Shown here in pieces: positions 2,574-37,107 of a stretch of 40,550 nt of DNA; position 1 is the stretch's first letter; every line of letters begins with the position of its first letter. Below the pieces are notes generated by a model. That model searched no databases, had not been told where the DNA came from, and saw only the letters and a list, made by a program, of their open reading frames with translations. The position numbers were made by a program, and so were the translations under genes. The DNA comes from Streptomyces sp. DvalAA-14 (lineage in GTDB: Bacteria; Actinomycetota; Actinomycetes; Streptomycetales; Streptomycetaceae). The stretch lies in assembly GCF_900091855.1 (NCBI RefSeq), contig NZ_FMCH01000087.1:1-40550 (forward strand), given 5' to 3'.

Positions 2574-2611
2574 CGGATGCTCCTTCAGAACCTCGGGTAA
2601 CGGGCGCCCCG

Positions 2612-2793: not shown

Positions 2794-2822
2794 CTGACAT
2801 GAAGACATCGGGGGCGTAGTGT
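2794..2822 (+). promoter_or_regulatory. Probable sigma70-type promoter of the 2878 membrane-protein gene
   Basis: CTGACA (2794-2799), a 17-nt spacer and TAGTGT (2817-2822) face the plus-strand gene pair at 2878-5529. The initiation point would be near 2829. Together with the opposite promoter, this accounts for the 304-nt divergent gap between 2573 and 2878; nothing else was seen there. Confidence 0.5.
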
Positions 2823-2877
2823 GCTGCGCCCGGGTCACTGCGGGGCGTTCCGACGGGGGCAACAGGGGGAAGACGAC

Positions 2878-5121: not shown

Positions 5122-5130
5122 GAGGCGGCC

Positions 5131-5529
5131 ATGTCCGACGAGATCCCGGGCCGGTCACCGGTCAACCACGGCTTCCAAGTCCTGGGCGGCCAGGTCCGGA
5201 TCGGCAACCAGGCGGTCGGCCCCGGGGCGCGGGCGGTGGCCGGCAGCGTGACGACGGGGGCGGGGGCTCCCGCGGCGGCCACCGCCGCCGATCTGCTGCT
5301 GGTGATCGAGCGGCTGCTGGACGAGCACCGCGAGCAGTTGCCGGACCAGTCCGCCACACGGGCCGAACTGGGACGCCTGCGTGAGGAGTTGGCGGATCCA
5401 CAGCCGGAGCCGGGGGCGGTCGGCCGGGCGCTGGCCCGTCTGACGGCCTTCGTGCAACCGGTGACCCCGCTCGTGGCCGCCGTCGGCGGCCTCGCCGAAT
5501 CGCTGCGGGACCTGCTCGGCCACGGCTGA
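5131..5529 (+). CDS. Small soluble partner protein with N-terminal GNQAVG motif (DUF5955-like)
   Basis: This 132-residue protein starts at ATG 5131 behind GGAGG, 9 nt after the membrane-protein gene, so the two are co-transcribed. Residues about 11-29 match the tail of the upstream protein in the pattern NHG-x4-GG-x4-GNQAVG; 19 consecutive bases encoding the core are identical. The remainder is predicted helical: a leucine-rich segment (LLLVIERLLDEH), a charged helix, then a hydrophobic helix near the C-terminus. The layout, a glycine-rich 'GNQAVG' start followed by helices, reminds me of small actinobacterial proteins annotated DUF5955, but this comes from memory and no function is known. 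It lacks a signal peptide. A cytoplasmic adaptor for the membrane protein is the simplest inference. Confidence 0.7.
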   Translation: MSDEIPGRSPVNHGFQVLGGQVRIGNQAVGPGARAVAGSVTTGAGAPAAATAADLLLVIERLLDEHREQLPDQSATRAELGRLREELADPQPEPGAVGRALARLTAFVQPVTPLVAAVGGLAESLRDLLGHG

Positions 5530-5592
5530 CGACGGCGGCCCCGCCACGGGCGCCGATGAGCGCCGGATGATTGAGATTGTTCGCAACAGCGG

Positions 5593-5621
5593 TTGATCGA
5601 GCAACTGCGAGCATCTAGGGT
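5593..5621 (+). promoter_or_regulatory. Promoter with overlapping inverted repeats upstream of the Gfo/Idh/MocA gene
   Basis: TTGATC (5593-5598), a 17-nt spacer and TAGGGT (5616-5621) form a good sigma70-type promoter ending 67 nt before the ATG at 5689. Two related inverted elements lie over and beside the -35 box: TGTT-CGC-AACA (5578-5588) and GTTG-ATCGAG-CAAC (5592-5605). Such placement suits a repressor operator, perhaps for a sugar-responsive regulator. The regulator is not identified. Confidence 0.5.
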
Positions 5622-5688
5622 CGGCACGTGAACACGCCGGCCGCCGCCGCGGCGCCGGGCCGATCGACCGTGAGGGGAGAGCCGCTCC

Positions 5689-8225: not shown

Positions 8226-9578
8226 ATGGCTCTCGGCCGTTCCCTTCCCGCCGGGCCGCCGTCGCCTCCCGCCCGGCCGTCCCGCCGCCGTGTGCTGCGC
8301 CAGGGCTCGGGCGCGGCGCTCGGCCTCGCCGCCGGAGGCGCGCTGACCGCCTGCGGCGCGGGCGCCGGTGACGGGGTCGGCGCCGACGGACGCGTCACGA
8401 TCGAGCTGTGGCACGGCCAGACCGATGTCGGCCGTGCCGCCATCGAGGGGCTGGTCAAGGCGTTCAACAGCAGCCATCCCACGATCCGGGTCAATCCCGG
8501 CGGGGGTGTGCTGTCGGACTCCATGCTGCAGAAGGTGACCGCGGCGCTCGCCTCCGGCTCGTACCCGGACATCGCCTACATCTTCGGCTCCGACCTGGCC
8601 GGCATCGCCCGCAGCCCGCGCGTGGTCGATCTGACCGGCATGACGCGCACCCTGCCCACGCCGTGGTCCGACTACTGGGCGCCCGCCCGAGACGCGGTCA
8701 CCATCAACGGCCGGGTCCGCGCCGCGCCCGCGCTGCTCGACTCGCTGGCCGTGGTCTGCAACAAGAAGCTGTTCCGCGCCGCCGGACTTCCGCTGCCGCA
8801 AGCGGGCTGGACCTGGGCGGAGTTCCAGGACACCGCGGCCAAACTCACCGACGCCGGACGGGGGGTGTTCGGCACCGGCTGGCCCGGGGTCGGCGACGAG
8901 GACACCGTATGGCGGCTGTGGCCGATGATATGGGACCTCGGCGGCGACGTGGTCGCGCCGAACGGCAAGGGCATCGGCTTCGCGGACACCGGGGTACGGG
9001 CCCTGGAGACCGTCCAGGGGCTCGCCGAGGCCAAGAGCGTCTACATCGACCCGAAGCCCGGCACCGAGCAGATGTACCAGGTCTTCAACTCCGGCCGGAT
9101 GGGCATGGTCGTCACCGGCCCCTGGGGGCTGCCGGACATCATCACCGCGAAGATCGACTACGTGGTGGTGCCGCTGCCCAGTTACAGCCGCAAGCCCATC
9201 ACCATCTCCGGACCCGACACCTGGACGGTGTTCGACAACGGCGACGCGCGGGTGAAGGCGGCGCGGACCTTTGTGAGCTGGCTGATGCAGCCCGCGCAGG
9301 ACGTGCGCTGGGACGTGCAGGCCGGCAGCCTGCCGCTGAGCCGCAGCACCGAGAAGCTGCCCGCCTGGCGCGCCCAGGAGGCCGACACCGTCGGGATGCC
9401 GGTGTTCACCAAGTCCCTGGAGACCGCCCGGGTCCGGCCCGCGCACCCCGCCTACGCGCAGATCTCGGAGTCGCTGGGCCAGGCGATCGTGTCGGTGCTG
9501 CTCGGCCGGAGCACCCCCGCCAAAGCCCTGCGCCGCTGTGCCGACGAGGCCAACGCCGCCCTGCTCATCCCGCGTTGA
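8226..9578 (+). CDS. Sugar ABC transporter substrate-binding lipoprotein (Tat type)
   Basis: ATG 8226 follows TGGAGG by a few bases; an upstream ATG at 8196 has no such site. The 450-residue protein has a twin-arginine signal (SRRRVLRQGS) and a lipobox (LTAC), so it should be folded before export and then lipid-anchored on the outer face of the membrane. The mature part matches family 1 extracellular solute-binding proteins: VTIELWHGQTD start, a conserved FN(S/N)SHP segment, PDIAYIFGSDLAG, and a TGPWGLPDI hinge motif. These proteins bind oligosaccharides for CUT1 importers. Two permease genes follow immediately. No ATPase gene is in the window; CUT1 systems in streptomycetes commonly share the MsiK ATPase encoded elsewhere. 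The ligand is inferred from the GH114 and GH4 neighbours. Confidence 0.9.
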   Translation: MALGRSLPAGPPSPPARPSRRRVLRQGSGAALGLAAGGALTACGAGAGDGVGADGRVTIELWHGQTDVGRAAIEGLVKAFNSSHPTIRVNPGGGVLSDSMLQKVTAALASGSYPDIAYIFGSDLAGIARSPRVVDLTGMTRTLPTPWSDYWAPARDAVTINGRVRAAPALLDSLAVVCNKKLFRAAGLPLPQAGWTWAEFQDTAAKLTDAGRGVFGTGWPGVGDEDTVWRLWPMIWDLGGDVVAPNGKGIGFADTGVRALETVQGLAEAKSVYIDPKPGTEQMYQVFNSGRMGMVVTGPWGLPDIITAKIDYVVVPLPSYSRKPITISGPDTWTVFDNGDARVKAARTFVSWLMQPAQDVRWDVQAGSLPLSRSTEKLPAWRAQEADTVGMPVFTKSLETARVRPAHPAYAQISESLGQAIVSVLLGRSTPAKALRRCADEANAALLIPR

Positions 9579-9588
9579 GGAGCCTCCC

Positions 9589-10542
9589 ATGCCACCGCTG
9601 CCCGCCCCGCTCACCCTCTCCGACACCGACAGGGTGCGGCTGCGCGCCCGGCGCCGCGGCCGCCGCCGCGAGTCCGCCACGGCCTGGGCGTTCATCTCAC
9701 CGTCGGTGCTGGTCATCCTCGGGCTCAGTGCCGTGCCGGTGGTCTGGTCGCTGCTGCTGTCCTTCCGGGCCGACGACCTGGTCACCCCCAGCCGCTGGGT
9801 CGGCCTGGACAACTACCGTGCGCTCAGCCACGATCCGCACTTCAGCCAGGCCGTGGGCAACACCTTGGTCTACACGGCGCTGTACGTGCCGCTGAGCATG
9901 GTGCTCGGGCTCGCGCTCGCGCTCGCGCTGAACCGGCGGATCCGGTTCGTCGGCCTCTACCGCACCTTGATCTTCGTGCCGTTCGTGATCTCCGAGACCG
10001 CCCAGGGCGTGCTCTTCTCCTTCATCCTCGACCCGCAGTTCGGCGCGGCCAACTCCGTGCTGCACGCCCTGCACCTGTCCTCGCAGGGCTTCCTCACCGA
10101 TCCCGGGCAGGCGCTGTACGTCCTGGTGGCCATCTCGCTGTGGAGCAGCACCGGTTTCTGCGTGGTGATCTACCTGGCGGCCCTGCAGGACGTACCGCAG
10201 ACCCTGATCGAGGCGGCCCGGCTGGACGGCGCCGGCCGGCTGCACCTGCTGCGGCACGTGGTGCTGCCGACGCTGACGCCGGTCAGCGTGTTCCTGCTGC
10301 TGTGGCAGACCATCAACGCCCTGCAGGTCTTCGACCTGGTGTACGTCACCACCAAGGGCGGCCCGATCGGTTCCACCACCGTGGTCGTGTACTTCATCTG
10401 GCAGGCGGCGTTCCAGAACTTCACCGCCGGGTACGGCGCGGCGGCCGCGTACGTCCTGGCCGTCGCCCTGCTCGTCATCGCCGTCGTGACCCGCCTGGCG
10501 CGGCGCCGCGAGAACACCCGCCTCGAAGGAGCCGCACGATGA
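9589..10542 (+). CDS. Carbohydrate ABC transporter permease, MalF/UgpA-like
   Basis: The 317-residue protein starts at ATG 9589 behind GAGGAG, which overlaps the stop of the binding-protein gene. It has an arginine-rich cytoplasmic start, then six predicted membrane helices (the first being WAFISPSVLVILGLSAVPVV). The EAA loop (EAARLDGAGRLHLLRHVVLP, about residues 207-226) contacts the ATPase and is characteristic of CUT1 permeases. The protein would pair with the product of the next gene to form the membrane channel. Its stop overlaps the next start by 4 nt (ATGA), indicating translational coupling. Confidence 0.92.
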   Translation: MPPLPAPLTLSDTDRVRLRARRRGRRRESATAWAFISPSVLVILGLSAVPVVWSLLLSFRADDLVTPSRWVGLDNYRALSHDPHFSQAVGNTLVYTALYVPLSMVLGLALALALNRRIRFVGLYRTLIFVPFVISETAQGVLFSFILDPQFGAANSVLHALHLSSQGFLTDPGQALYVLVAISLWSSTGFCVVIYLAALQDVPQTLIEAARLDGAGRLHLLRHVVLPTLTPVSVFLLLWQTINALQVFDLVYVTTKGGPIGSTTVVVYFIWQAAFQNFTAGYGAAAAYVLAVALLVIAVVTRLARRRENTRLEGAAR

Positions 10543-11450
10543 CGGCGACATCCCCGTCCCCCCTGTCCACCGGCGCCCCGCGGCAGGCCGGCCCGTCCGC
10601 GACACCGGCGCGGGCGCCCTTCGCGGGCCGCCGCCTGCGGCTGCCGTTCAGCGCCTGGCACCTGCTGCTGGCCCCGCTCGCCCTGCTGTTCGCCCTGCCG
10701 CTGATCTGGCTGCTGCTCAGCTCGGTGATGAGCGACGCGGAGATCAACCGCTTCCCGCCGGCGCTGTGGCCTTCGGGCATCCATCTGGACGGCTACCGGT
10801 ACGTGCTGGGCAACGCCATGTTCCCGCGCTGGTTCGCCAATTCGCTGATCGTCTCGGCGGTCGCGGTGGCGTCCAACCTGGTGCTCGGCTCGCTGGGCGG
10901 CTACGCCTTCGCGCGGATGCGGTTCGCCGGGTCCCGCACGCTGATGACGCTGATGCTGGCGACGATGGTCGTCCCGTTCCAGCTGACGATGATCCCGACC
11001 TTCCTGGTGATGAAGAAACTGGGGCTGATCGACACCCTCGGCGCGCTGATCGTCCCGTCGCTGGTCACACCGTTCGCGGTGTTCCTGCTGCGGCAGTTCT
11101 TCCTGTCGCTGCCGCGGGAGCTGGAGGAGGCCGCCTGGATCGACGGGTGCTCACGGCTGCGGGTGCTCTACTCGATCGTGCTGCCGCTGTCCCGCCCGGC
11201 GCTGAGCACCGTCGCGGTCCTCACCTTCCTGGCCACCTGGAACGATCTGACCTGGCCGCTGATCGCCATCAACCACGACGTGCACTACACGCTGCAATTG
11301 GGCCTGACCACCTTCCAGGGCCAGCACCACACCAAGTGGTCGGCGGTGATGGCGGGCAACGCCATCACCATCGCGCCCGTGCTGCTCGCCTTCCTGGCCG
11401 CGCAGAAGTCCTTCATCCAATCCATCACCTCCAGCGGTCTCAAGGGCTGA
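10539..11450 (+). CDS. Carbohydrate ABC transporter permease, MalG/UgpE-like
   Basis: ATG 10539 overlaps the previous stop, and GAAGGAG lies about 10 nt upstream. The 303-residue product begins with about 30 polar residues and then has six predicted helices. The WFANSLIVS segment and the EAA loop (EEAAWIDGCSRLRVLYSIVLP region, about residues 195-215) are typical of the second CUT1 permease. It is the partner of the MalF-like protein. The gene lies 55 nt before the sugar kinase gene, and all five genes from 8226 to 13769 look like one operon. Confidence 0.92.
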   Translation: MTATSPSPLSTGAPRQAGPSATPARAPFAGRRLRLPFSAWHLLLAPLALLFALPLIWLLLSSVMSDAEINRFPPALWPSGIHLDGYRYVLGNAMFPRWFANSLIVSAVAVASNLVLGSLGGYAFARMRFAGSRTLMTLMLATMVVPFQLTMIPTFLVMKKLGLIDTLGALIVPSLVTPFAVFLLRQFFLSLPRELEEAAWIDGCSRLRVLYSIVLPLSRPALSTVAVLTFLATWNDLTWPLIAINHDVHYTLQLGLTTFQGQHHTKWSAVMAGNAITIAPVLLAFLAAQKSFIQSITSSGLKG

Positions 11451-11505
11451 GCCGCCCCCGCCCGCCACGACCACCCCATCGCACGCCACCACCACGGGAC
11501 ACCGG

Positions 11506-12459
11506 ATGCCGCACGACTTCGACCTGCTCGTCATCGGGGACGCCAACCCCGATGTCGTCCTCGGACCGATCGACGCCCCGCTCGCCTTCGGGCAGCACGA
11601 ACAACTCGTCGACACCGCCCTGCTCACCCTGGGCGGCTCCGCCGCGATCATGGCCTGCGGCGCCGCCCGGCTCGGCCTGCGCACCGCCTTCGCCGGCCGG
11701 GTCGGCGACGACGAGGCCGGCCGCTTCGTCCGCGCCGCGCTGGACGCGCGGGGGGTGGACACCGCCGCGCTGCGGCTCGACCCGGAACTGCCGACGCCGC
11801 TGACCACGGTGCTCAACCGCCGCGACGACCGGGCCATCCTGACCGCCGCCGGCACGCTGAGCGCCACCTGCGCCGACGACGTACCGGCGGAGCTGCTCAC
11901 CGGATGCCGGCACGTGCACGCGGCCTCGTACTTCCTGATGCCGAAGCTCGCCGAGGCGCTGCCCGGACTGTTCGCCGCCGCGCGGGCCGCCGGCGCCACC
12001 ACCTCCCTCGACACCAACGACGACCCGAGCGGGCGGTGGGCGCCCCCGGGCTTCGACGCCCTGCTCGCCGTCACCGACATCCTGCTGCCCAACGCGGCCG
12101 AGGCAGCCGCGCTGGCCGGCCCCGAGGCGGCGGCGCCGCAGCAGGCCGCCGCCGAACTCGCCGGGCGCGGACCGCTGGTCGTGGTCAAGAACGGCGCCGA
12201 GGGCGCGCTGGCCCACGACGGCCGCACCCTGACCCGTACCGGCGGCACCCCCGCCGAGCCGCTCGACACGGTCGGGGCCGGCGACAGCTTCGACGCCGGC
12301 TTCGTCACCGCCCTGCTGGCGGGCCTGCCTCTCGCGCAGGCCCTCGATCTCGCGGCCGCCTGCGGCGCCCTGTCCACCCGGGCGCTGGGCGGCACCCCCG
12401 CCCAGCCCACCTGGACCGAGGCGCTGGCAGCCGTATCCCGCAACGGAAAGAACCACTGA
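11506..12459 (+). CDS. PfkB-family (ribokinase-like) carbohydrate kinase
   Basis: The 317-residue protein starts at ATG 11506; only a weak GGGA site is upstream, so translation may depend on the operon. The N-terminal motif GGSAAIMACGAARLG corresponds to PfkB signature 1, and DTVGAGDSFDAGF (about 254-266) is signature 2, with Asp260 as the expected catalytic base and GAGD as the anion hole. Kinases of this family phosphorylate sugars such as ribose, fructose, tagatose phosphate or adenosine with ATP. In this operon, between a sugar importer and a GH4 glycosidase, it probably traps the liberated monosaccharide. The substrate cannot be read from the sequence. The stop overlaps the next ATG (TGATG). 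Confidence 0.88.
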   Translation: MPHDFDLLVIGDANPDVVLGPIDAPLAFGQHEQLVDTALLTLGGSAAIMACGAARLGLRTAFAGRVGDDEAGRFVRAALDARGVDTAALRLDPELPTPLTTVLNRRDDRAILTAAGTLSATCADDVPAELLTGCRHVHAASYFLMPKLAEALPGLFAAARAAGATTSLDTNDDPSGRWAPPGFDALLAVTDILLPNAAEAAALAGPEAAAPQQAAAELAGRGPLVVVKNGAEGALAHDGRTLTRTGGTPAEPLDTVGAGDSFDAGFVTALLAGLPLAQALDLAAACGALSTRALGGTPAQPTWTEALAAVSRNGKNH

Positions 12460-16389: not shown

Positions 16390-16543
16390 GCGACCGCCGG
16401 ACAGCGCCCGAAGCGGGCCGCCCGCGGTGGCCCCGCATGCGGTGGGCCAGGTGCGGTGCCACGATGAAAAAACCGCGCGAGCCCCCAAGGACGCCTGGTC
16501 CGACGGCGGGTGGCGCGCCCCATCAGGAAGGGCGGGTCCACCG

Positions 16544-17249
16544 ATGAGCGTGGCACAAGACGTTGCGGTCCGCAGCGCCCAACGGGTGCTGGAAACGCTG
16601 GACTCCCAGGGCGTGCGCCACATCTTCGGCGTGCCGGGAGCCAAGATCGACGCGGTCTACGACGCACTGGCCGACGGCGGCCCGCGGCTGGTGGTCCGCC
16701 GGCACGAGCAGAACGCCGCGTTCATGGCCGCCGCCGTCGGCCGGCTGACCGGGACGCCCGGGGTCGTCCTGGTCACCTCCGGGCAGACCCTCACCAAGTT
16801 CACCGGCGAGGTCGGCGATCCGGACCATGTCGCCGAGACGGTGATGAACGCCCTGCGCGCCGCTGTCACCGAACCGCGCGGTTCGGCGGCGGTGGTGCTG
16901 CCGACCGACGTCCTCGCGGCGAAGACGTCCGCGACCCTCACCCATCCGCTGCCGGTCGGCCGGCTCGGCCCGGCGCCCGCCGACGGGATCCGCCGGGCCG
17001 CCGAACTCGTCCGCGGCGCGCGGCGGCCGGTGCTGCTGGAGGGGGCGCGCGCCGCCGACCCCGACAGCTGCGCCGCGCTGCGCGACCTGATCGCCGGCAC
17101 CGGGCTTACCGGACCGCCACCGAGACGATTTCGTCGCGGCCCTGCGGCAGGCGCTCGCCGAGGAGGGCGTGTCGGTTGTCGATGTGCCGGTCGACTACCG
17201 CCGCAACACCGATCTGGCCGCCCAACTGCCCGAGGATCCCTTTGAGTAG
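16544..17249 (+). pseudogene. Decayed acetolactate synthase (alsS/ilvB-like)
   Basis: From ATG 16544 the sequence reads like the N-terminus of a ThDP-dependent acetolactate synthase: ETLDSQGVRHIFGVPGAKID, then RRHEQNAAFMAAAVGRLTG. After GVVLVTSG (about 16785) the expected ~50 residues are missing and the text resumes at TKFTGEVGDPDHVAE. The frame continues to GARRPVLLEGARAADP and then breaks near 17105-17125. A different frame from about 17123 encodes DDFVAALRQALAEEG...VVDVPVDYR, the C-terminal end of the enzyme, with a TAG at 17247. The middle domain and the whole C-terminal cofactor domain are absent, leaving about 235 of about 550 residues. It cannot be functional. It lies directly before an intact acetolactate decarboxylase gene, so it was once the first gene of an acetoin operon. 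Confidence 0.85.
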
Positions 17250-18173: not shown

Positions 18174-18188
18174 TACGGTGAGTGCATG
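18174..18188 (+). promoter_or_regulatory. Possible leaderless start of the signalling operon
   Basis: A -10-like TACGGT (18174-18179) ends 6 nt before the ATG at 18186, and no ribosome-binding site is present. This spacing is what a leaderless mRNA would show. The -35 region is weak. Confidence 0.35.
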
Positions 18189-19643
18189 GGAACGCATCAT
18201 CACAGCGACGATCCCTGGCGTGTGAGAGTGGACGACGGCGACGGCAAACCGTGCGGCGCCGGCGTGCTGCTGGACGAGCGGCACGTACTCACCTGCGCGC
18301 ATGTCGTCAGGTACGCGGGCGCGTCGCCCGGCGGGACCGCCGCGCACGTGCGGATCAAGAGTGTGGCCTGCACCCCGGAGTGGACCGGCACCGCGCGGGT
18401 CGCGCCGGAGTCGTGGGTGCACCGCAGCGGTACGCGGCGCGGGGACGTGGCCCTGCTCCGGCTGGACGAGCCGACCGGCTGCCGGGCGCACGCGAGTTTG
18501 TGGCGGGCGCCGATCTCGGGCGGCAAGGTGCGCGTCTACGGCTTCCCGGCCGCCGAGCCCTACGGCATCGGGACCGACGCGGAACTGGCCGGCTCCGGCG
18601 GCCGGGAGGGCGAGTGGGGGCTGCTCAACCGGATCCGCACCGGGAGCCCGTGGATCGAGGCGGGCTACTCGGGGGCCGGTGTGGTGGCGCTCGGCGGCGA
18701 GTTCGCCGGCCGCGTCATCGGCATCGTGGTCGCGGACTACGTCAACGCCGGGGCGCGGGCGGCGTGGATGCTGCCGACCGAGACCGTGCTGGCGTATCTG
18801 CCGCAGGTCGAGCGGTATGTGGCGGGCGGGCTGGCCAACCATCTGGGAGCGTCCGACGACATACCGCCCGACGACGTCCTCAGCGACGCGCTGCGGCTCG
18901 CCCTCACCCAGGAGCTGACGCGGCTGCTGGACGGCCCGTGGGCGGGCACCGTCGTGCTGCACTGCGACGTGAAGCCGTCGAACATCATCCGCTTCAAGGA
19001 GGAGAGCGCCGTCGGCCCGCGCGACCGGGTGCGGCTGATCGACTTCGGCTCGGTGCGGACCGTGCACGACCTCGGTCCGGTCGCCGAGTACACCGAGGCG
19101 TACGCGCCCCCCAAGCACCGCGCGCCGCGGCCCGACCCGGAACACGCCCGTCCCACCGCCGGATTCGACCTGTTCTGCCTCGGCATGACACTGACCGAGC
19201 TGTGCCGGGAGCATCTGCGCGACCGCACCGCGCCGGGCGTCGATTCGCTGCATCTGCTGCTGGAGCGGGCCACGGACACCGCCGATCCGGAGCGCAGATT
19301 CGTCTCGGCCCGCCAGTTCGCCGAGCAGCTCAGCGGGGTGATCCGGCAGGTCGTGACGGCCACCCCGGGGCGGGGGCCGGTGCAGCGGGCCTCGGCGCTG
19401 TTCGGCTCGATGACCGACCCGCTGCACGGCGGGCTCGGCGCGGTACGGCCCGTCGGCCACTGGATCACCGCCGGTCCGGGCGCGGACCGCGTCCTGACGC
19501 TGTCCGCGCCCTTCTCCTCGCCGGCGCCCCGGGACGCCGCGGCCGGCGCTGCCCGCGCCGCTGTCCGATCCCGATCACCCGCAGGCCGGCGGCCCGGCGA
19601 CCGGGGCGCTCGCCGAGTGCCGGGCCGCGCTGCGGCGCGGTGA
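18186..19643 (+). CDS. Trypsin-like serine protease fused to a truncated PknG-like kinase (frameshifted, probably non-functional kinase)
   Basis: Residues 1 to about 210 form a trypsin-like domain with a full triad: His39 (LTCAHVV), Asp87 (DVALLRL) and Ser162 (GYSGAG). From about residue 255 the sequence is the C-lobe of a PknG-type kinase: HCDVKPSN (His259, Asp261, Lys263, Asn266), DFG at 286, then FDLFCLGMTLTEL and ERATDTADPERRF. The kinase N-lobe (glycine loop, ATP-binding lysine, helix-C glutamate) is absent; the trypsin part and a short helix join straight to the catalytic loop near 18945-18955, as expected for an in-frame deletion. The last about 35 residues are out-of-frame; the true continuation, a TPR domain, lies in another frame up to 20388. 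The protease may work. The kinase should be inactive. The tight gene row downstream marks it as the first gene of the operon. Confidence 0.8.
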   Translation: MGTHHHSDDPWRVRVDDGDGKPCGAGVLLDERHVLTCAHVVRYAGASPGGTAAHVRIKSVACTPEWTGTARVAPESWVHRSGTRRGDVALLRLDEPTGCRAHASLWRAPISGGKVRVYGFPAAEPYGIGTDAELAGSGGREGEWGLLNRIRTGSPWIEAGYSGAGVVALGGEFAGRVIGIVVADYVNAGARAAWMLPTETVLAYLPQVERYVAGGLANHLGASDDIPPDDVLSDALRLALTQELTRLLDGPWAGTVVLHCDVKPSNIIRFKEESAVGPRDRVRLIDFGSVRTVHDLGPVAEYTEAYAPPKHRAPRPDPEHARPTAGFDLFCLGMTLTELCREHLRDRTAPGVDSLHLLLERATDTADPERRFVSARQFAEQLSGVIRQVVTATPGRGPVQRASALFGSMTDPLHGGLGAVRPVGHWITAGPGADRVLTLSAPFSSPAPRDAAAGAARAAVRSRSPAGRRPGDRGARRVPGRAAAR

Positions 19644-20388
19644 CGCGGACACCGCGCGGGAGGCGCTGGCCGCGGTCGACCTGCCGCAGGGGCACTGGCT
19701 GCGGTCCTGGTACCGCGGTCTGATCGAGCTGACGTGCCAGGACGGCGTGCGCGCCACCGAGGAGTTCACGCACACCCGGCGGGCGCTGCCGGGCGAGTTG
19801 ATCCCGCGGCTCGCGCTCGGCCTGTGCGCCGAGCTGCGCGGCGACCTCGCGGTCGCCCAGTTGCACTACGGCACGGTCTTCGACACCGCGCCGGCGCTCG
19901 GCGCCGCGGGCTTCGGCCTGGCCAGGGTGCATCTGCTGGCGGGACGGCGGGCGGCGGCGGTGGCCACCGCCGAGCGGCTGGCGCCCGAGCCGCGCTTCGA
20001 GCGCGAGGCGGCCATAGCGGCGGTCCGGCTGCTGGTCGCGGTCGTACCGCCGCCGGGACCGGGGGCGCCGGCTCCCGCCGACCTCGCGCGGGCCCGGGGG
20101 TCGATGTCCCGGCTGGAGGTGGACGCCGCCGCGGGCGCGGGGCTGCGGGCGGAGATCGAGTACGCCGAGTTCGTCGTCGCGGGCGATCGGCTGAAGCTGT
20201 CGGAGGTGGTCCGCGAGGTGGCCGGCCATGCCACCACCGAGCGCGATCACACCGCGCTGGTCGATCTGGCGAACCGGCTGCGGCCCGGCATCGACTGGCG
20301 GCAGCTGCGACCGGGCAGGCGCGCGTCGCGCGCGGGCGGCGCCGGGAATCCGGGCAATCGCCCTACGGCACGCCCCCGGGAGCGATAA
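19546..20388 (+). pseudogene. Frameshifted C-terminal TPR part of the PknG-like protein
   Basis: In the frame +1 relative to the preceding ORF, from about 19546, the sequence reads ALPAPLSDPDHP..., then GDADTAREALAAVD, LRSWYRGLIELT, PGELIPRLALGLCAE and GAAGFGLARVHLLAGRR. This is the C-terminal tetratricopeptide domain of PknG-family kinases, beginning with their usual LP-x-PL-x-DP junction. It belongs to the gene at 18186, and one indel near 19530-19548 separates the two. An independent product could only begin at GTG 19747, inside the domain and without a clear ribosome site. It may be a sequencing indel in a GC-rich tract or a real mutation. Confidence 0.8.
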
Positions 20389-20430
20389 ACTCATCATCCC
20401 ACTGAACGACGCGGTCAGGTGGTGCGATTG

Positions 20431-21876
20431 GTGAGCGGGTCTGCGGTCGGACTGAGTTTCACCGTCGAGGTCGACGCACCCGGGGATCTCGCCTTCGAGG
20501 ACACCCGCGCCGACGCCCTGCTCACCATCGGCGCGCGTTCCACCGCGGCAGCCGGGGCCGTCCCGCAGACCCGGTTCGCCGAGGTCCTCATCATGGACCG
20601 GTCGCTGTCCATGGCCGGCCGGGGCAAACTCGCCGAGGCCAAACGGGCCGTGTGCGCGGCGATCGACACCCTGGTCGACGGGACGTATCTCGCGGTCGTC
20701 GCCGGCAACCACCGGGCCGAGGTCGTCTACCCGCTCGGCGGGGGCATGGCCCGGGTCGACGAGGACGTCAAGGCGGCGGCCAAGCGCCGGGTCGCCGACC
20801 AGCTCCCGGAGGGCGGCACGGCCATCGGCGGCTGGCTGACCCAGGCCGAACGGCTCTTCGCCCCGGTGGCCTCCGGTGGCACCGTGTGCCACGCGGTGCT
20901 CTACACCGACGGCAAGGACGAGCACGAGTCCGAAGCGGAGCTCAGCGCCGCGCTGGCGGCCTGCGCCGACCGCTTCGTGTGCGACGCGCGCGGACTCGGC
21001 GAGGACTGGAACTACACCGAGCTGCTGCGGATCACCGAGGCGCTGCACGGCAGGCCCGAGGCAGTGGTCGCCATCGCCGACCTCACCGAGGACTTCATCC
21101 GGCTCATGCGGCAGGCGCACGGGCTCGTGGTGCCCCGGGCCTACCTGAGCCTGCGCCTCAACGACCGTTTCCGGGTGGGCTTCGTCCGGCAGATCCGTCC
21201 GGTCGAGGCCGATCTGACCCTTCAGCAGCAGCGCCGCGGCGGCGAGCTCCACATCCCGCTCGGCGCCTGGGCGCCGGAGATCCGCCAGTACCTGCTGTCG
21301 CTGAGCTTCGAGGCCGCGGCGGTGCCCGTCGACGAGGAGCTGCGCGCCGCCCGGATCGGGATGCGCGCCGAGACGCCCGGCGGCGACCGCGAGGCGTGCG
21401 GGCCGGAGCAGGCGATGGTGATCCGCAGACGCGGCACCCCCGGCCTGGCGACGGTTCGGCCGGAGAGCCTCACCCGGGTGGAGAACGAGCGGGAGCTGGG
21501 CATGGCGATGCGCGCCTGCGCCGACGCCGGGCAGCGGGGCGATCCGGCCGTCGCGAACCGGGAGTTACGCATCGCCCTGGAGCTGGCGGAACGCCTGGAC
21601 GACGCGCCGAGACTCCGGCTGCTGCGGCAGGTGTCGGAGCTCGACCGGGACGGGATGCCCCGGCTGCGCCCCGACGTGACACGGGGCGAGATGCAGCGGC
21701 TCGGACTGGACTCGGTCAAGACCGGTACCGCGCCGGCCGACATGGTCGACGCCGTGCCGCCCGCCGACCGGGCCCGCGTCTGCCGCCACTGCGGCGCGAC
21801 GACCTCCGCCCGCGTCCTCAAGCACTGCGAGCGTTGCGGCCGCCCGTTCGGGGACGAGGTGGCGGACAGCCCGTGA
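20431..21876 (+). CDS. vWA-domain protein with C-terminal zinc ribbon; carries a TTA codon
   Basis: I prefer GTG 20431 (AGGTGG 8 nt upstream) over GTG 20419; this gives 481 residues. A von Willebrand A domain occupies about residues 45-220. Its metal-ion-dependent adhesion site is complete: DRSLS (Asp56), the threonine of GGTAIGG, and YTDGKDE. A beta-rich region follows, then helices, and a zinc ribbon at the end (CRHCG from residue 451 ... CERCG). There is no signal peptide. Such proteins often act as metal-dependent scaffolds with AAA+ ATPases or in conflict systems. Codon 379 (21565-21567) is TTA, so in a streptomycete translation would need the bldA tRNA. The stop overlaps the next start. 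Confidence 0.85.
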   Translation: MSGSAVGLSFTVEVDAPGDLAFEDTRADALLTIGARSTAAAGAVPQTRFAEVLIMDRSLSMAGRGKLAEAKRAVCAAIDTLVDGTYLAVVAGNHRAEVVYPLGGGMARVDEDVKAAAKRRVADQLPEGGTAIGGWLTQAERLFAPVASGGTVCHAVLYTDGKDEHESEAELSAALAACADRFVCDARGLGEDWNYTELLRITEALHGRPEAVVAIADLTEDFIRLMRQAHGLVVPRAYLSLRLNDRFRVGFVRQIRPVEADLTLQQQRRGGELHIPLGAWAPEIRQYLLSLSFEAAAVPVDEELRAARIGMRAETPGGDREACGPEQAMVIRRRGTPGLATVRPESLTRVENERELGMAMRACADAGQRGDPAVANRELRIALELAERLDDAPRLRLLRQVSELDRDGMPRLRPDVTRGEMQRLGLDSVKTGTAPADMVDAVPPADRARVCRHCGATTSARVLKHCERCGRPFGDEVADSP

Positions 21877-22829
21877 ACGCCTTCGTGACGGCCGCGCGCC
21901 CGCCGCGGCGGAGCCCGGCCAGCCCGTACACTCGGCTGCGCGCGACCCACCCGGTCCGGGTGCTGCGCTGGCTGCGGACGGGCGTGCTGATCGGTGTCGT
22001 CGCCACCGCGCTGCTGTACCTGCTGGTGGCGACCGAGGCGCGGCGCGAGATATCCGCCGCCCGCCGGACTTCGGTGGCGGTGGGCGACATCGGGAACGCC
22101 GTGGACATGGCGCTGATTGCGGGACCGGCCCTCGACTCGGCGTTCGCGCACGAGGACGTGCCCCTGACCGGCGCGGGAACGACGTTCACCGGTGCCATGG
22201 CGCAGGTGGGCACCGACATCACCTCGGCGGCCCAGGGCAATGCGGCGGGCGTCCCCGGAGCGACCCAGATCCAGTTCGTGCAGGACCAGTTGGCGACCTG
22301 CAACCAGCTCGCCGCGGCCGCGGTCCTCGACTTCTCCACGTCCAGAGCCGAGGCGGACACCGACGCCCTCAAGGCGCTGAACGACCCGGACGAGACCGAC
22401 CCCGACACCCACGCGGCGATCGCGAACACCGGTGGCCTGCTCGCGGCGCTGCGGGACCTGGAGGGTCTCGAACAGGGCGGGCTGAACCGGCAGCGTGCCT
22501 CGCACTGGCTGGACCCCGGTTCCTTCTGGTGGCTGCTCACCGGGCCGGTGATCGTGACGGCGCTGCTGGCCCTCGCCAGTGCCTGGGTGGTGGCGTCGCA
22601 CTTCCGGCGGATCGTCAGTCCGCTGCTCGCGGCCGCGCTGCTCGTCGCCGCGACGGTCGCGGTCACCGCCGGCGCGCTGAGCACGCACGACGAGAGCCGG
22701 CTGTCCGCCAACCCGCTGGCGAGCCATCCGGTGACCCTGGCGGCCGCGCCGTCCCTGCTCTGCGCCGCGGGGGTGCTGGCGTATCTCGCCTACCGCCCCC
22801 GGCTCAACGAGTACCGGTTCCAGCGGTGA
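21873..22829 (+). CDS. GlnX-like membrane sensor protein
   Basis: GTG 21873 overlaps the vWA stop (GTGA), with GAGGTGG about 10 nt upstream. The 318-residue protein has a basic cytoplasmic start, one membrane helix (about 37-54), an extracellular helical domain of about 160 residues, and three further hydrophobic helices (about 219-240, 248-268, 285-303). This topology resembles GlnX, the membrane partner that links the lipoprotein GlnH to PknG in mycobacteria. The extracellular part (QIQFVQDQLATCNQL...LEQGGLNRQRASHW) looks like a four-helix sensor. Assignment rests on topology and on neighbours (PknG-like upstream, binding lipoprotein downstream), not on strong sequence signatures. Confidence 0.7.
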   Translation: MNAFVTAARPPRRSPASPYTRLRATHPVRVLRWLRTGVLIGVVATALLYLLVATEARREISAARRTSVAVGDIGNAVDMALIAGPALDSAFAHEDVPLTGAGTTFTGAMAQVGTDITSAAQGNAAGVPGATQIQFVQDQLATCNQLAAAAVLDFSTSRAEADTDALKALNDPDETDPDTHAAIANTGGLLAALRDLEGLEQGGLNRQRASHWLDPGSFWWLLTGPVIVTALLALASAWVVASHFRRIVSPLLAAALLVAATVAVTAGALSTHDESRLSANPLASHPVTLAAAPSLLCAAGVLAYLAYRPRLNEYRFQR

Positions 22830-24136
22830 TGCGGGCCCTGCTGGCGCGGCTCGCGCGCTGCGTCCCGGTGCTGGGGCTGCTCGCGGCCTGTGCCGCCTGC
22901 TCCGGTGGTCCGGCCGGCGGCGGCAGTGTCACCATCATGGTTCCCTGGAGCGGCGCGGAGTTCCAGGCGTTCTACTCCGTCGTCAAGCGGTTCGAGGCGC
23001 GCACCGGTATCCAGGTGAATGTCGAGGTCACCCGGGCGACGACCCAGCAGCTCGACGCCGCACTGGCCGCGGGCCTGCCGCCCGACCTGGCCGTACTGCC
23101 CAGCGTGGGCGCGGTCGAGCTCTACGCCGACCGGAAGGCGACGGACGGCCGGCTGCGGCCGCTGGACATCGACCCGGGACGCTTCGTGGCACCGTTCAGC
23201 GGCCTCATGACGGTGGATCGGCAGGTGTTCGCCGTCCCGGTCAAGGCCGACGTGAAAAGCCTGATCTGGTACGACCCCGAGGTCACCCGCGATCCCCCCA
23301 CCACCTTGGCGGCGCAGCGCGCGTTCTCTCCGCCGGCCGGCGCGCCCTGGTGCCTGGGACTGGCGTCCGGTCCGACCTCCGGCTGGCCCGGCGCCGACTG
23401 GATAGCGGACATCCTGCTGGCCGGACCGGACGGCGTCGGCACCTACGAGAAGTGGGTCGCCGGCACGCAGAAGTGGGACTCGGCGCCGGTCGAGGCGGCG
23501 TGGCGCACGTGGGGCGGGCTCGTCCGCGACAGCGCCGCCAGGGCTCCGGTCACCGAGTTCAGCGCCGCCGCGAAAGGAATGACGCAGCAGCATCCCAGCT
23601 GCGCGCTCGATCACGGCGCCCTGTCCGCGATGGGCTTCGGCGCGGACCTGGTCCAGGAGAAGGACTACGACTTCGCGGGCAGCCCCGGCCGTGCGCCGCT
23701 GGAGGTGTCCGGCGACTTCGTCGGGATGTTCGCCGCGCACAATCCGCGTGCCACCGAGCTGATCGAGTACCTGTCGGGCCAGGACGCCCAGACCGCCTGG
23801 GTCGGGCAGACCGCCGGCCACGCGTTCTCCGCCAGCCGCGAGGTGCCGATCTCCGCCTACCCGAAGGGAATCGAGGCGCGGATCGCCGCCATGCTCCGTC
23901 CGGAGAGCGGCCACACCCTGTGCTTCAGCGCCGCCGACCTGATGCCGCCGGACCTGTCGGCGGCCTTCTACCGGGCCGTGCTCAACTACACCGCGAACCG
24001 GGGGGATCCGTCGGGCCTGCTGCGCCAGCTCGACAAGGTCCGCGGCGATCTCGACCAGCCGCAGGCGCCGAACGGCCCGGCCTGCTCCACCCCGCCGCGG
24101 GCCCTCGCCGATGTCCCGCCGGCCGATGCCCCATGA
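22829..24136 (+). CDS. GlnH-like substrate-binding lipoprotein (family 1 fold)
   Basis: ATG 22829 overlaps the previous stop by one base. The 435-residue protein has a signal peptide and lipobox (LLAACAAC), then a solute-binding fold: SVTIMVPWSGAEFQAF, PPDLAVLPSVGAVELY, VKSLIWYDPEV, and an ALDHGALSA hinge. Family 1 extracellular solute-binding proteins usually serve ABC importers, but no permease or ATPase gene is near. It sits instead beside a GlnX-like sensor and a PknG-like gene, so a sensory lipoprotein role is likely. In mycobacteria GlnH senses aspartate and glutamate; this protein looks more like a sugar-type binder, so the ligand is uncertain. The C-terminal 40 residues are proline-rich. 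Confidence 0.8.
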   Translation: MRALLARLARCVPVLGLLAACAACSGGPAGGGSVTIMVPWSGAEFQAFYSVVKRFEARTGIQVNVEVTRATTQQLDAALAAGLPPDLAVLPSVGAVELYADRKATDGRLRPLDIDPGRFVAPFSGLMTVDRQVFAVPVKADVKSLIWYDPEVTRDPPTTLAAQRAFSPPAGAPWCLGLASGPTSGWPGADWIADILLAGPDGVGTYEKWVAGTQKWDSAPVEAAWRTWGGLVRDSAARAPVTEFSAAAKGMTQQHPSCALDHGALSAMGFGADLVQEKDYDFAGSPGRAPLEVSGDFVGMFAAHNPRATELIEYLSGQDAQTAWVGQTAGHAFSASREVPISAYPKGIEARIAAMLRPESGHTLCFSAADLMPPDLSAAFYRAVLNYTANRGDPSGLLRQLDKVRGDLDQPQAPNGPACSTPPRALADVPPADAP

Positions 24137-24145
24137 AAGGACCCC

Positions 24146-24496
24146 ATGTCCGACGCGGTCGCCTTCTCCCTGACCGACGGGACCGTCGTCCTGGTGACCC
24201 CGCCGGCCCGGGCGGGCACCGGCGCCGTGGGCCTCGGCGACCGCCTGGAGACCGCGCAGCGGACCCTGCGCGAAGCGCTGGCGCCGGTGACCGCCGCCGC
24301 GTCCGAGGCGATGGACGGGTTCCGGGAGCTGGCCCACCGGCCGGACGAGGTGGAGATCAGCTTCGGTGTCGTCCTGGACGGCAAACTGGGCGGTGTCATC
24401 GCGAGCGCCAACGCCAGCGCCCACCTGGACGTGACGCTGCGCTGGCACGCCCCGGACGCGGAAGGGCGCCCGGCGGAGCCGGGCGCCCTCGGGTGA
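24146..24496 (+). CDS. Trypco1-like (trypsin-co-occurring domain 1 / CU044_2847 family) protein
   Basis: The 116-residue protein starts at ATG 24146 behind AAAGGA, 9 nt after the lipoprotein gene. The pattern is characteristic: a short beta-hairpin (FSLTDGTVVLVTP), a helical middle (LETAQRTLREALAPVT), then RELAHRPDEVEISFGVVLDGKLGG and ANASAHLDVTLRW. This fold is known to be encoded beside trypsin-like peptidases in actinobacterial conflict-type gene clusters, and here a trypsin-like domain starts the operon. The biochemical role is not established. The last codons lie inside the stem of a strong terminator. No signal peptide is present. Confidence 0.8.
   Translation: MSDAVAFSLTDGTVVLVTPPARAGTGAVGLGDRLETAQRTLREALAPVTAAASEAMDGFRELAHRPDEVEISFGVVLDGKLGGVIASANASAHLDVTLRWHAPDAEGRPAEPGALG
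24464..24488. terminator. Bidirectional terminator embedded in the end of the Trypco1-like gene
   Basis: GGGCGCCCGGC (24464-24474) and GCCGGGCGCCC (24478-24488) form a perfect 11-bp stem with a GGA loop. The hairpin lies in the last codons of the plus-strand gene and 20 nt beyond the stop of the minus-strand gene, so it can end both convergent transcripts. Confidence 0.65.
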
Positions 24497-24507: not shown

Positions 24508-27500
24508 TCAGTGCACGGTCAGCTGCACGCTGCCGGTCACGCCGCCACTGGTCACGGACACCGTCACGGTGCCCGCGCGGTGTGCGGTCAGCCGACCGCT
24601 GACCGCGTCGACCGAGGCGACCTTGCTGTCGCCGGAGGACCAGACATGTGACGCCGGGTCGGCGATCGGCACGGTGAGGGCCGGCAGGTTGTCACCGGCG
24701 ATCTGCGTACCGGTGGCCGTCAGCGCGACCCGGTCGCCCGGGGCGAGCGGTGCCGAAGGGGCGGTCACCGCGATCGAGGCCAGTGCCGGCTCCACCGAGA
24801 ACTGGATGTCCCCGCCGGCGCCGACGTGGACCAGGCCGAAGTGGTAGAAGCCGCCCTGGTTCGCAGGGGCGTAGGCGGGCATGCCCAGGTCCGCGAAGGT
24901 GAGCTGCGGGATGCCGCCGGCGGCGGCGCTCACGGCGTTGCCCTCGGGGTCGAGGATCTGCTCGGAGAAGCCGCGTGCGTGCCCGTAGAGCATGATCACG
25001 TGCTGGTCCGGGTGCGACTCCTGGTACTTCTGCACCAGGCGCAGATACATCTGCGCCTCCCACCGGTCGGTGAACTGGCTGTTGGCCGCCGCGTGCGGGT
25101 CGTAGGCCGGCATGTGCGTGACGACCAGCACGTCCTTGGCGTGGGTGGCCGTCAGCTGCTGGACCAGCCACGGGTACTGCGCGGCGGCCGGCGTCTGGAA
25201 CGGGTCCGAGGACTGCAGGCTGCCGTGCGAGTTGTCGGTGACGATCACCTGGGCGGGGCCGTCGGAGTAGGCGTAGTGGGTGTCGCCGAAGGTCTGGCTG
25301 TAGTTGCCGTTCTCGGCGTCGGCGCCCTGGGTGATCTCGTGGTTGCCGACGATGTCGTGCTCCGGGATGCCGAGCGCGTCCATTTTCGACTTGGCGTACT
25401 GGAGGTCGGGGAGCTTGCCGTCGTCGGACATGTCACCGAGGAACTGGGCGGCGTCGGGGCGTGCCTGGGGGCTCAGTGACGGCAGCCGGCCGGCGATCGA
25501 GCTCAGCACGTTGCTGCTGACCGAACCGGGGTCGTCGGCGAGCAGGTGCGCGTCGTCCCCGGTGAGCAGGGTGCTGCCCTTCTTGCTGAAGGCGCTGGAG
25601 TCCTCCTCGAAGGTCAGCCAGGACGGGTTCTTCGGGATCGCCTGGTAGGCGGGCGCGGTCACCGGCCGGGGCGAGTACAGCGCCTGCAGACCGCTGACGT
25701 TCAGCGAACCGCCCGTCGTCGTGTTGGGGTTGATGCCCAGGAAGTCGACGAAGGAGATGGTCAGCGGGAACTGCAGTCCGGCCGGCAGCTGGGCGACCGC
25801 GAGGTGCCAGTCGTTCCAGGTGACGTAGGTCGGGTAGAGGGTGGTCTTGGTGCCGTCCACCCCGATGTAGGCCTCGGCCAGTTCGATGCCCGAGCCGTTG
25901 CCCTTGATCCACACCCCGATACCGGTGGGGGTCTGCCCGTCGTCGCTGGTCGTGGTCTTCAGCGTGGTCTTGGACGACAGGACCAGCTGCTTGACGCCCG
26001 AGCCGGCCGGCATCGTGTAGTCGAGCTTCAGCGACCCGGTCTCGGTGGAGGCCGGCGGGACGACGCCGGGGTCGGCGCTGAGCGTGGCCGGCTGGCCGGT
26101 GGTGTTGTTGCTGAGGCGCCAGACATCGGTGCTGGTCATCGGGTCGATCGTCTTGCTGACACTGCCGACCGCGATGCTGGCGGTGGCGGTGGCGCCGCCG
26201 ACCGAGGCGGTGACCTCCGCCAGACCGCCGTTGGTCGCGTCGGCCGTGAACAGGCCGTGGGCGTCGACGGTGCCCAGCGTGGCCGGGGTGACCTTCCAGT
26301 CCGCGGCCTCGGCCGGGATCTGGGCCGCCGCGCCGCCCTTGACGGTGCCGGACAGGGTGAGTTGCTGGGTGGCGCCGTTGCCGAGGTCGGGGGCGTCGGG
26401 CGAGACCGCCAAGGTGGCGAGCCGGTCGACCACGGTCAGCTTCTGCGAGGTGGTCGCGCGGCCGTCGGTCGCGACGATCCGGCCGGTGCCGGTGCGCAGC
26501 GCGGTGAGCCGGCCGTCCGCGACGGAGGCGAGCGAGGAGGGCTCGACCGTGACGCGGACCGATCCGGCGGCGGGGTTGCCCAGCCGGTCGGTCGCGTAAG
26601 CCGGGACAGGGACGGTGCCGCCGGCGACGGTGGTGACGGCCTTGCCGCCGTTGACGACCGCCTTGGTGGCCGGGCCGGCCGTTTTGGCGGTGGAGTAGAA
26701 GAAGATGCCGTTGCCGACCGGGCGTTCGGTGTTGCCGGGCAGGTCCGACGGCGTGTTGGCGACGGTGACCTGGCCGGCGCCCGGGACGCGGGTGGCCATC
26801 GTGGTGGAGCCGCCGCCGTCGAAGAGCATGGCGGTGTAGGCGCCGTGGGCGACCATGTAGCCGGCCGCCTGCTGCGGGGTGACGCCGAAGGCGGTGGTGG
26901 TGCCGCCGTGCCCGTCGATGGCCACGACGGTCGCGTGCTTGCCGTCCTTGCTGATGCCGACGGCCGTCTCGGGGTTGGCGCCGCTGGGGGGCGTGCCGGT
27001 CGGGTCGTTGTAGACCTTGCCGTCCTTGACGAGCGTGGTGACGCCGCTGACCAGCTGCTCGAGGTCGTTGTCCGGGGACAGCGCGGTGGCCAGGCGCACC
27101 GTGTCGCCCACATGCAGGGTGCCGGTCAGCCACTGGCCGCCCGCGCCGCCGCCGAGCAGGCCGAGCTGGCCGTCGGTCAGCCGGTCCACGGAGGTGACAC
27201 CGGTCCGCACGCTGTCGACGGTGAAGGAGCCGGCCGCGGTGCTGTGGCCCAGGGCCAGGGTGGCGCCGGTCAGACCCGGCGTGGCGCCGAGGTCGGGGGT
27301 CACCTCGGTGACGCCGCCGGCCGCCACGTCGTCAACGGTGTTGACCGAGGTGAGCGGGCGGGTCGCCGTGCCGTCGGTGACGGTGCCGGTGAAGGTCTGC
27401 GGGCCCATCACCATGGTGCCGTCCGGCCGGATGCCGAGCTGGGAGGCGAAGCCGGGCTTGGGGGACTTCAGCAGCCGCCCGTCGGTGACGACGCCGCCGA

Positions 27501-27972
27501 GCGGGCGTCCGCTGGCGTTGATCTCGAAGTAGTCGCCGTTGACCCCGGCCACCGCGTGCGTGCGGTTGGCCATCGAGGAGACGGTCTCGTCGGCCGGGTT
27601 GGTGAGGGTGTCCCCGGCCTCCACCACGCCGACCCGCAGATTGGGGTCGGTGAGGTCGGCGGTGAGCACCTGGGTGTGCTGGCGGCCGCCGACGGTGTCG
27701 TAGGTCTCGGAGTACTGCTGCAGGCCCCGGGTGATGGTGGCGCTCGGCGTTCTGCTGAAGTCGACGACCTGCGGCCAGTTGTCCGGTGTCGGGGGCAGCC
27801 AGGCCCGCCGGGCCGCCGCGGACGTGACGGTGCCGTGCGCGCCCCCGCTCGGCTGATCGGCCGACGCCAGCGCGCCTCCGGTGACGCCGCCGGCCAGCAG
27901 CAGCGCCAGCGAGGTCGTCACGGCGGTACGTCGCGCACCGGCACGGACAAGCCATTTACCACGAAAAGTCAT
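24508..27972 (-). CDS. Secreted phosphodiester glycosidase (NAGPA-type) / metallophosphoesterase with Ig-like domains
   Basis: ATG 27972 follows TAGGAA by 9 nt; an in-frame upstream start at 28032 is less convincing. The 1154-residue protein has a signal peptide (about 1-36). Residues about 60-440 form a phosphodiester glycosidase domain: VAGVNGDYF, SQLGIRPDG, and MLFDGGGSTTM. Ig-like/BIG2 segments and a jelly-roll-like domain follow. A calcineurin-like phosphoesterase lies at about 800-1020 with DAH (about 806), GDMSDDG (about 844), GNHE (about 875), THMP (about 955) and GHARG. A last BIG2 domain ends the protein. It should be extracellular and could remove phosphodiester-linked sugars and phosphate from wall polymers or exopolysaccharide. 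The two catalytic domains on one chain suggest sequential action, which is an inference. Confidence 0.85.
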   Translation of the reverse strand: MTFRGKWLVRAGARRTAVTTSLALLLAGGVTGGALASADQPSGGAHGTVTSAAARRAWLPPTPDNWPQVVDFSRTPSATITRGLQQYSETYDTVGGRQHTQVLTADLTDPNLRVGVVEAGDTLTNPADETVSSMANRTHAVAGVNGDYFEINASGRPLGGVVTDGRLLKSPKPGFASQLGIRPDGTMVMGPQTFTGTVTDGTATRPLTSVNTVDDVAAGGVTEVTPDLGATPGLTGATLALGHSTAAGSFTVDSVRTGVTSVDRLTDGQLGLLGGGAGGQWLTGTLHVGDTVRLATALSPDNDLEQLVSGVTTLVKDGKVYNDPTGTPPSGANPETAVGISKDGKHATVVAIDGHGGTTTAFGVTPQQAAGYMVAHGAYTAMLFDGGGSTTMATRVPGAGQVTVANTPSDLPGNTERPVGNGIFFYSTAKTAGPATKAVVNGGKAVTTVAGGTVPVPAYATDRLGNPAAGSVRVTVEPSSLASVADGRLTALRTGTGRIVATDGRATTSQKLTVVDRLATLAVSPDAPDLGNGATQQLTLSGTVKGGAAAQIPAEAADWKVTPATLGTVDAHGLFTADATNGGLAEVTASVGGATATASIAVGSVSKTIDPMTSTDVWRLSNNTTGQPATLSADPGVVPPASTETGSLKLDYTMPAGSGVKQLVLSSKTTLKTTTSDDGQTPTGIGVWIKGNGSGIELAEAYIGVDGTKTTLYPTYVTWNDWHLAVAQLPAGLQFPLTISFVDFLGINPNTTTGGSLNVSGLQALYSPRPVTAPAYQAIPKNPSWLTFEEDSSAFSKKGSTLLTGDDAHLLADDPGSVSSNVLSSIAGRLPSLSPQARPDAAQFLGDMSDDGKLPDLQYAKSKMDALGIPEHDIVGNHEITQGADAENGNYSQTFGDTHYAYSDGPAQVIVTDNSHGSLQSSDPFQTPAAAQYPWLVQQLTATHAKDVLVVTHMPAYDPHAAANSQFTDRWEAQMYLRLVQKYQESHPDQHVIMLYGHARGFSEQILDPEGNAVSAAAGGIPQLTFADLGMPAYAPANQGGFYHFGLVHVGAGGDIQFSVEPALASIAVTAPSAPLAPGDRVALTATGTQIAGDNLPALTVPIADPASHVWSSGDSKVASVDAVSGRLTAHRAGTVTVSVTSGGVTGSVQLTVH

Positions 27973-28069
27973 TGCTTTGATTCCTATGGGCTGTGCACCG
28001 GCACATCGTCGGCACTCGTCCCCACCTGACACCAGCCGGATGAAGCAGGGGTTGAGACAAGAAGGATGC

Positions 28070-37092: not shown

Positions 37093-37107
37093 CATGATGA
37101 CCGCATG
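37093..37107 (+). promoter_or_regulatory. Possible leaderless start of the Ser/Thr kinase gene
   Basis: A -10-like CATGAT (37093-37098) ends 6 nt before the ATG at 37105. GAGG is present but about 12 nt away, so the transcript may be leaderless. The rest of the 36813-37104 gap shows no gene. Confidence 0.3.

Follow-up and report, generated by a model that had tools for sequence, protein, structure and literature searches.

Organization of the locus

The window analysed here is a whole contig (C395, 40,550 bases) of the draft assembly of Streptomyces sp. DvalAA-14, which comprises 669 contigs and 7.94 Mb. Its plus strand carries sequences for a trypsin-like protein, a PknG-like kinase, a vWA protein, a GlnX-like membrane protein, a solute-binding lipoprotein and a Trypco1 protein. 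Together they represent a conserved operon of six genes, present here in a damaged state, and the join between the trypsin and kinase sequences is local damage. The features are as follows.

18186..19643, plus strand: broken first open reading frame (ORF), with a trypsin-like domain followed by the C-lobe of a PknG-like kinase
about 18255-18710, plus strand: trypsin-like domain within this ORF (Pfam span)
18953..18960, plus strand: trypsin/kinase join, where '..GTVV' of the trypsin protein directly abuts 'LHCDVKPSN..' of the kinase
19498..20388, plus strand: ORF with the residual PknG TPR part, in another frame (PknG_TPR match about 19603-20151)
20419..21876, plus strand: vWA protein with zinc-ribbon-like cysteines at the C-terminus (Pfam)
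21873..22829, plus strand: short GlnX-like membrane protein, 318 residues (alignment, helical model, profile comparison)
22829..24136, plus strand: carbohydrate-type solute-binding lipoprotein, SBP_bac_8 family (Pfam)
24146..24496, plus strand: Trypco1 protein, PF19493 (Pfam)

The vWA and GlnX-like genes overlap by 4 nucleotides and the GlnX-like and lipoprotein genes by 1, with gaps of 30 nucleotides from the end of the TPR frame to the vWA gene and of 9 from the lipoprotein gene to Trypco1. An original prediction made from this DNA had described five adjacent genes with short overlaps or gaps; the close spacing stands, but the first of the five genes is broken.

The six-gene unit in relatives

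In its intact form the unit consists, in order, of genes for a trypsin/degenerate STAND/tail protein (gene 1 below), a PknG-like kinase, a vWA/zinc-ribbon protein, a short GlnX-like protein, a solute-binding lipoprotein and Trypco1. Loci were found in named genomes through an alignment of the vWA protein alone, which returned 32 loci, 31 of them useful; the other (L044, Gemmatimonadetes, where the vWA match spans 48 residues) shows none of the six families. By label the 31 comprise 29 Streptomyces, with S. griseoluteus (L022) and S. bicolor (L029) among them, one Actinacidiphila and one metagenome-assembled genome of Nocardiopsis. In 25 of the 31 the complete set of six genes is present in a single positional order, so that the gene order is not unique to this genome, and the suggested union of a PknG/GlnX/solute-binding module with a trypsin/vWA/Trypco1 module is borne out as one recurring operon. 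The kinase (partial in L018) and the vWA protein are present in all 31 loci, the trypsin, GlnX-like and solute-binding proteins in 30 each, and Trypco1 in 26. The absent trypsin, GlnX and solute-binding genes fall at contig ends (L018, L026), and the L026 contig stops ahead of Trypco1. Neighbouring genes are separated by a median of 9 nucleotides (range -58 to 338, n=147, with starts chosen by script). The six-gene order is identical in L010, the locus used as reference below, and L011, which comes from another family of the order. No permease is found among the six genes.

Damage to the first gene in the window

The ORF at 18186 begins with a clear trypsin-like domain (Trypsin_2, 1.7e-10). 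Its alignment to the trypsin protein of the relatives runs through GTVV (window 18956), and alignment to their separate kinase begins at LHCDVKPSN (window 18957). In L010 these two points sit about 2.0 kb apart, and the stretch between them is skipped in the window. Lost relative to L010 are the last 344 residues of the 605-residue trypsin protein, together with the N-terminal zinc ribbon, rubredoxin domain and N-lobe of the kinase; the remaining kinase sequence covers Pkinase profile positions 119-194 of 263, the C-lobe side only, at 30 bits against a cut-off of 31.7. Further downstream, kinase homology exits the frame of this ORF at about 19510-19545, and codon-position GC content changes frame in 240-base windows starting at 19386 to 19626. 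This frameshift sets the kinase apart from its TPR part (PknG_TPR, 1.2e-29). With the N-lobe and rubredoxin domain gone and the TPR domain in a different frame, the window copy lacks the domain combination of the PknG family, and its kinase arm should not work because the N-lobe is absent and the TPR part is out of frame. A search of this assembly for the lost C-terminus of the trypsin protein gave a single weak match, 65 to 85 residues long, on contig C369; the stretch it spans is the one that, elsewhere, resembles the end of the protein encoded ahead of ordinary PknG.

The original prediction had read the start of the locus as a single gene joining trypsin, kinase and TPR domains. This reading was not upheld: in all 32 focal-type loci that have both (31 distinct), two distinct genes lying side by side encode the trypsin protein and PknG, and the two are likewise separate in the diverged trypsin-PknG clusters described below. 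A genuine new fusion protein would agree with an ORF that stays open through the join and with normal codon GC bias over it, but its kinase would be without an N-lobe and nucleotide-binding lysine, its TPR part is out of frame, and the neighbouring upstream acetolactate synthase gene also appears cut; together with the separate genes of the relatives, this makes a fusion very improbable. Errors of assembly are a serious alternative for both the join and the frameshift, if one with rather less than an even chance. The living strain would then have an intact operon, which fits the fragmented state of the draft and the fact that two adjacent genes are affected. Against this, the join shows, by eye, short microhomology only, without a long repeat.

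The acetolactate synthase gene lies just upstream (16427-17245) and matches TPP_enzyme_N over positions 4-82 of 119 only; a C-terminal TPP domain was not found in that frame. The acetolactate decarboxylase gene that follows it matches its family over positions 1-218 of 219.

Protein components of the operon

The kinase of L010 carries PknG_rubred (5.1e-12), Pkinase (9e-22) and PknG_TPR (4.9e-28) matches in one protein, the combination that defines the PknG family, and its best PDB match is PknG (2pzi, 1.4e-51). Residues were compared in 30 aligned copies (L010, L011 and 28 others, with L018, L026 and the duplicate L027 dropped). Invariant in all 30 are the trypsin His, Asp and Ser; the kinase Lys, catalytic-loop Asp and DFG; the PknG cysteines; and the vWA metal-site residues (DxSxS with T and D). 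The catalytic roles of the trypsin, kinase and vWA residues are assigned from sequence motifs. Since the active-site residues are invariant, the relatives probably have an active trypsin domain and an active kinase.

The C-terminal half of gene 1 shows homology to STAND-type NTPases (97.2% in profile comparison with the NTPase of L083, which has AAA_22 above and NACHT below cut-off). The Walker A lysine is present in none of 32 copies of gene 1 and the Walker B aspartate in three, while all three comparison NTPases, that of L083 among them, retain both. With its nucleotide-binding residues lost, the STAND-like domain is predicted to be inactive. An inactive STAND domain, as in the iSTAND systems, is therefore a feature of the relatives; that part is deleted in the window. 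The tail of gene 1 matches the end of a protein of about 440 residues that precedes ordinary PknG (85%, 58 columns).

The vWA protein was predicted to carry a zinc ribbon. The vWA domain is clear in the window (VWA_3, 1.3e-08), whereas the C-terminal ribbon is seen only in matches under their cut-offs (DZR_2, 0.0058). Trypco1, four genes downstream of trypsin, was recognized as predicted, well above cut-off (PF19493, 8e-23; 81.3 bits against 24.6); its residue alignment covers 26 copies.

The predicted model of the window GlnX-like protein has long helices and one extracytoplasmic helical domain, and its hydrophobic stretches, read by eye, suggest four membrane helices. Aligned to the GlnX-like protein of L012 it is missing the second extracytoplasmic domain, and so has one where GlnX has two four-helix domains. 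In profile comparison the window type matches that of L012 at 98.9% (2.1e-17), and the L012 protein in turn matches the NCBIfam family NF058618 at 4.8e-56, still below the curated cut-off of 250 bits. Other relatives also match below cut-off: L039 with 30.6 bits (1.8e-07), L011 with 15.7, L013 with 14.4, and L096 at an E-value of 6.5e-19. The GlnX-like sensor of the original prediction is therefore retained, as a membrane protein homologous to GlnX through these intermediates. Matches to it occur in four of 41 near genomes, its own included, and one of these (G023) is of the long type. In L012 the long GlnX-like gene (9213-11947) is paired with a carbohydrate-type solute-binding protein; none of the other four focal families was recognized in the 19.9 kb fetched.

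The lipoprotein had been expected to resemble GlnH. It is a solute-binding protein with, by eye, a lipobox-like N-terminus, and the cysteine at the lipobox position is invariant in 30 aligned copies, but it matches SBP_bac_8 (5e-08) and SBP_bac_11 (1.2e-05) only; the Pfam scan of the window protein gave no match to PF00497 (SBP_bac_3), the GlnH family, which ordinary GlnH proteins match at 1.8e-26 (L098) and 3.5e-25 (L097). An alignment of four rows, L012 included, was searched against PDB sequences; the best matches are AcbH and the chitin-oligosaccharide binder NagB2, with maltose-binding proteins among the weaker ones. On these family matches the lipoprotein is assigned to the carbohydrate-type binding families and not to the amino-acid family of GlnH.

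Distribution and neighbouring genes

The six-gene unit is sparsely distributed. Taking the C-terminus of gene 1 as full-length at E below 1e-100, with five candidates scored per genome, it was found in 11 of 394 family genomes and in three of 396 genomes of a phylum-wide sample. Judged by eye, flanking genes vary among locus groups, and close relatives share them (L016/L019/L020/L021, L022/L041 and L015/L042). A ppgK/ispH neighbourhood was present in four of 44 loci tested.

Directly upstream of the trypsin gene, four loci carry a similar long secreted-looking gene (L017 3394-6000, L024 3379-6000, L025 3445-6054, L034 3314-5998), the likeness being judged from the first 35 residues. In the window, a large protein on the minus strand (24508-28032) is convergent with the operon and has phosphodiester glycosidase, Ig-like and, below cut-off, metallophosphatase-like domains. 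A further Ser/Thr kinase gene lies at 37105-38997 (Pkinase, 1.3e-44).

Relation to PknG clusters and conflict systems

A second contig of this genome bears a portion of an ordinary PknG cluster: a PknG TPR part (303.9 bits) cut by the contig end, then PP2C, vWA and FHA genes. The order in another genome (L098) is GlnX (2.6e-108), GlnH, the protein of about 440 residues, PknG (in two overlapping frames), PP2C, vWA and an FHA-type N-terminus. Ordinary clusters (L098, L097, L047) have in common with the focal unit a homologous PknG and vWA protein, GlnX homology and the tail found in the protein that precedes PknG. They differ in having PP2C and FHA genes (PP2C_2 in L047 and L098, FHA in L047 and L097), whereas the focal unit adds trypsin/STAND and Trypco1, neither of which was seen in these three clusters, and a different class of solute-binding protein. 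Because the ordinary cluster also has a vWA protein, vWA alone is no pointer to a conflict system.

In L098 the protein encoded directly ahead of PknG (2169-3497) has no Pfam or NCBIfam match above cut-off. Some match to the profile of the gene 1 C-terminus occurs in 380 of 394 family genomes; many of those listed cover the tail only, and the protein itself was inspected in few of the 380.

Diverged trypsin-PknG clusters (L094-L096, L100-L102) have the trypsin protein, PknG, vWA and solute-binding protein in the focal order, with far greater divergence than among the focal loci. A GlnX-like protein was recognized in L094-L096 and L101 and not in L100 or L102, and Trypco1 in L094 and L096 only. 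In L099 a trypsin/WD40 protein of 1345 residues with intact Walker motifs (1678-6059) lies directly beside a Trypco1 gene, and no PknG was recognized within the 9 kb fetched.

In its account of the PknG-GlnX-GlnH operon, PMC6069109 proposes that GlnH signals to GlnX and GlnX to PknG, with GlnX acting on the TPR domain; it expects every GlnH homologue linked to PknG to bind amino acids and names two kinases linked to solute-binding proteins, SGR_4432 and SCO1468. That operon, as described there, resembles the focal unit in bringing together a rubredoxin-kinase-TPR protein, a GlnX homologue and a surface solute-binding lipoprotein. The focal unit departs from it in the carbohydrate-type families of its lipoprotein, in the single extracytoplasmic domain of its GlnX-like protein and in the added trypsin/STAND and Trypco1 genes, and its genome has the partial ordinary cluster as well. 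The signalling put forward in PMC6069109 may serve as a proposed precedent for action through solute-binding protein, GlnX and PknG.

Kaur et al. 2020 (PMC7159879) define Trypco1 and iSTAND, and describe the iSTAND systems as almost wholly absent from actinobacteria. The MoxR-vWA conflict systems set out there share with the focal unit a trypsin-like domain, a Trypco1 neighbour, a vWA protein and a degenerate STAND-like domain; the focal unit is without MoxR and includes, in addition, a transmembrane ligand sensor and a PknG-like kinase. The terms PknG, GlnX and solute-binding are absent from the main text of that paper. Relative to what these two papers set out on the respective systems, and to the databases, the operon is new: a variant in which PknG signalling is combined with a protease arm.

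Possible action and alternative functions

We put forward the operon as a paralogue of the actinobacterial PknG cluster in which an external ligand would control an internal protease, a reading that comes near to an even chance without quite reaching it. It starts from the gene content and order, the homologies, the catalytic residues of the relatives, the loss of the Walker A lysine and the separate trypsin and kinase genes. From these we infer a signal that runs inwards. The surface lipoprotein would bind a ligand, possibly sugar-like, and dock on the extracytoplasmic helical domain of the GlnX-like protein, which would relay the signal to the kinase at its TPR domain; together with the vWA protein, the kinase may then control the trypsin/STAND-like/tail protein, presumably cytosolic, with Trypco1 as a regulator or adaptor acting with the protease.

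Several observations weigh against this proposal. Four of the 31 loci (L014, L017, L037, L038) have no Trypco1 match, and PP2C and FHA genes, looked for with Pfam in the window and L010 proteins, are not among the six. The window GlnX-like protein has no Pfam match at E 0.1, none to NF058618 at the same threshold and no useful NCBIfam match, and when its profile was compared directly with that of the partial ordinary GlnX in L098 the result was 2% only. Iron-binding proteins are also among the weaker PDB matches of the lipoprotein, whose ligand class is read solely from family resemblance.

Two narrower functions were considered; both are special cases of the PknG-paralogue proposal, and their probabilities are not mutually exclusive. 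The operon could be a conflict system, anti-phage or inter-strain, in which the sensing of an envelope cue leads the trypsin/STAND/Trypco1 arm to kill the cell or arrest its growth. The sparse distribution and the flanks that differ among locus groups agree with this, as does the definition of Trypco1 beside trypsin in proposed conflict systems and the description, in the same source, of inactive STAND domains with N-terminal trypsin-like domains in iSTAND systems (PMC7159879). However, Pfam found no MoxR ATPase among the six genes (window and scanned L010 proteins), PADLOC calls no system (what it matches are shared domains of kinases and proteases, most strongly the L010 kinase against PD-T4-6 at 5.6e-25), and the main text of PMC7159879 lacks the sensory partners, as noted above. 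The flanks shared by close relatives and the recurrent ppgK/ispH neighbourhood fit inheritance at a fixed place within groups. On balance a conflict role appears unlikely. A nutrient or developmental regulator without such a role, that is, a copy of PknG-GlnX-GlnH that senses sugar and uses its protease to trim a regulator, is possible, if not what we would expect: the kinase, vWA and GlnX relatives belong to the PknG cluster, and the best PDB matches of the lipoprotein are named as sugar binders, but a core nutrient regulator would not usually be so sparsely distributed, and the ordinary clusters are without the trypsin and Trypco1 genes.

Implications

Within the PknG-paralogue proposal, a more specific and doubtful form makes the operon a distinct PknG branch in which a ligand outside the cell, probably carbohydrate-like, gates a trypsin/STAND protease in the cytosol by way of a relay of kinase and vWA protein. 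If true, this would be a transmembrane ligand-to-protease switch linking the worlds of nutrient sensing and conflict systems. The operon sets Trypco1 in a compact recurring context with defined partners. It also connects gene 1 with the protein encoded ahead of ordinary PknG. The lipoprotein lies outside the solute-binding family of GlnH yet stands beside a PknG paralogue and a GlnX homologue; an extension of kinase activation by solute-binding proteins to other, perhaps sugar-like, ligands therefore becomes directly testable.

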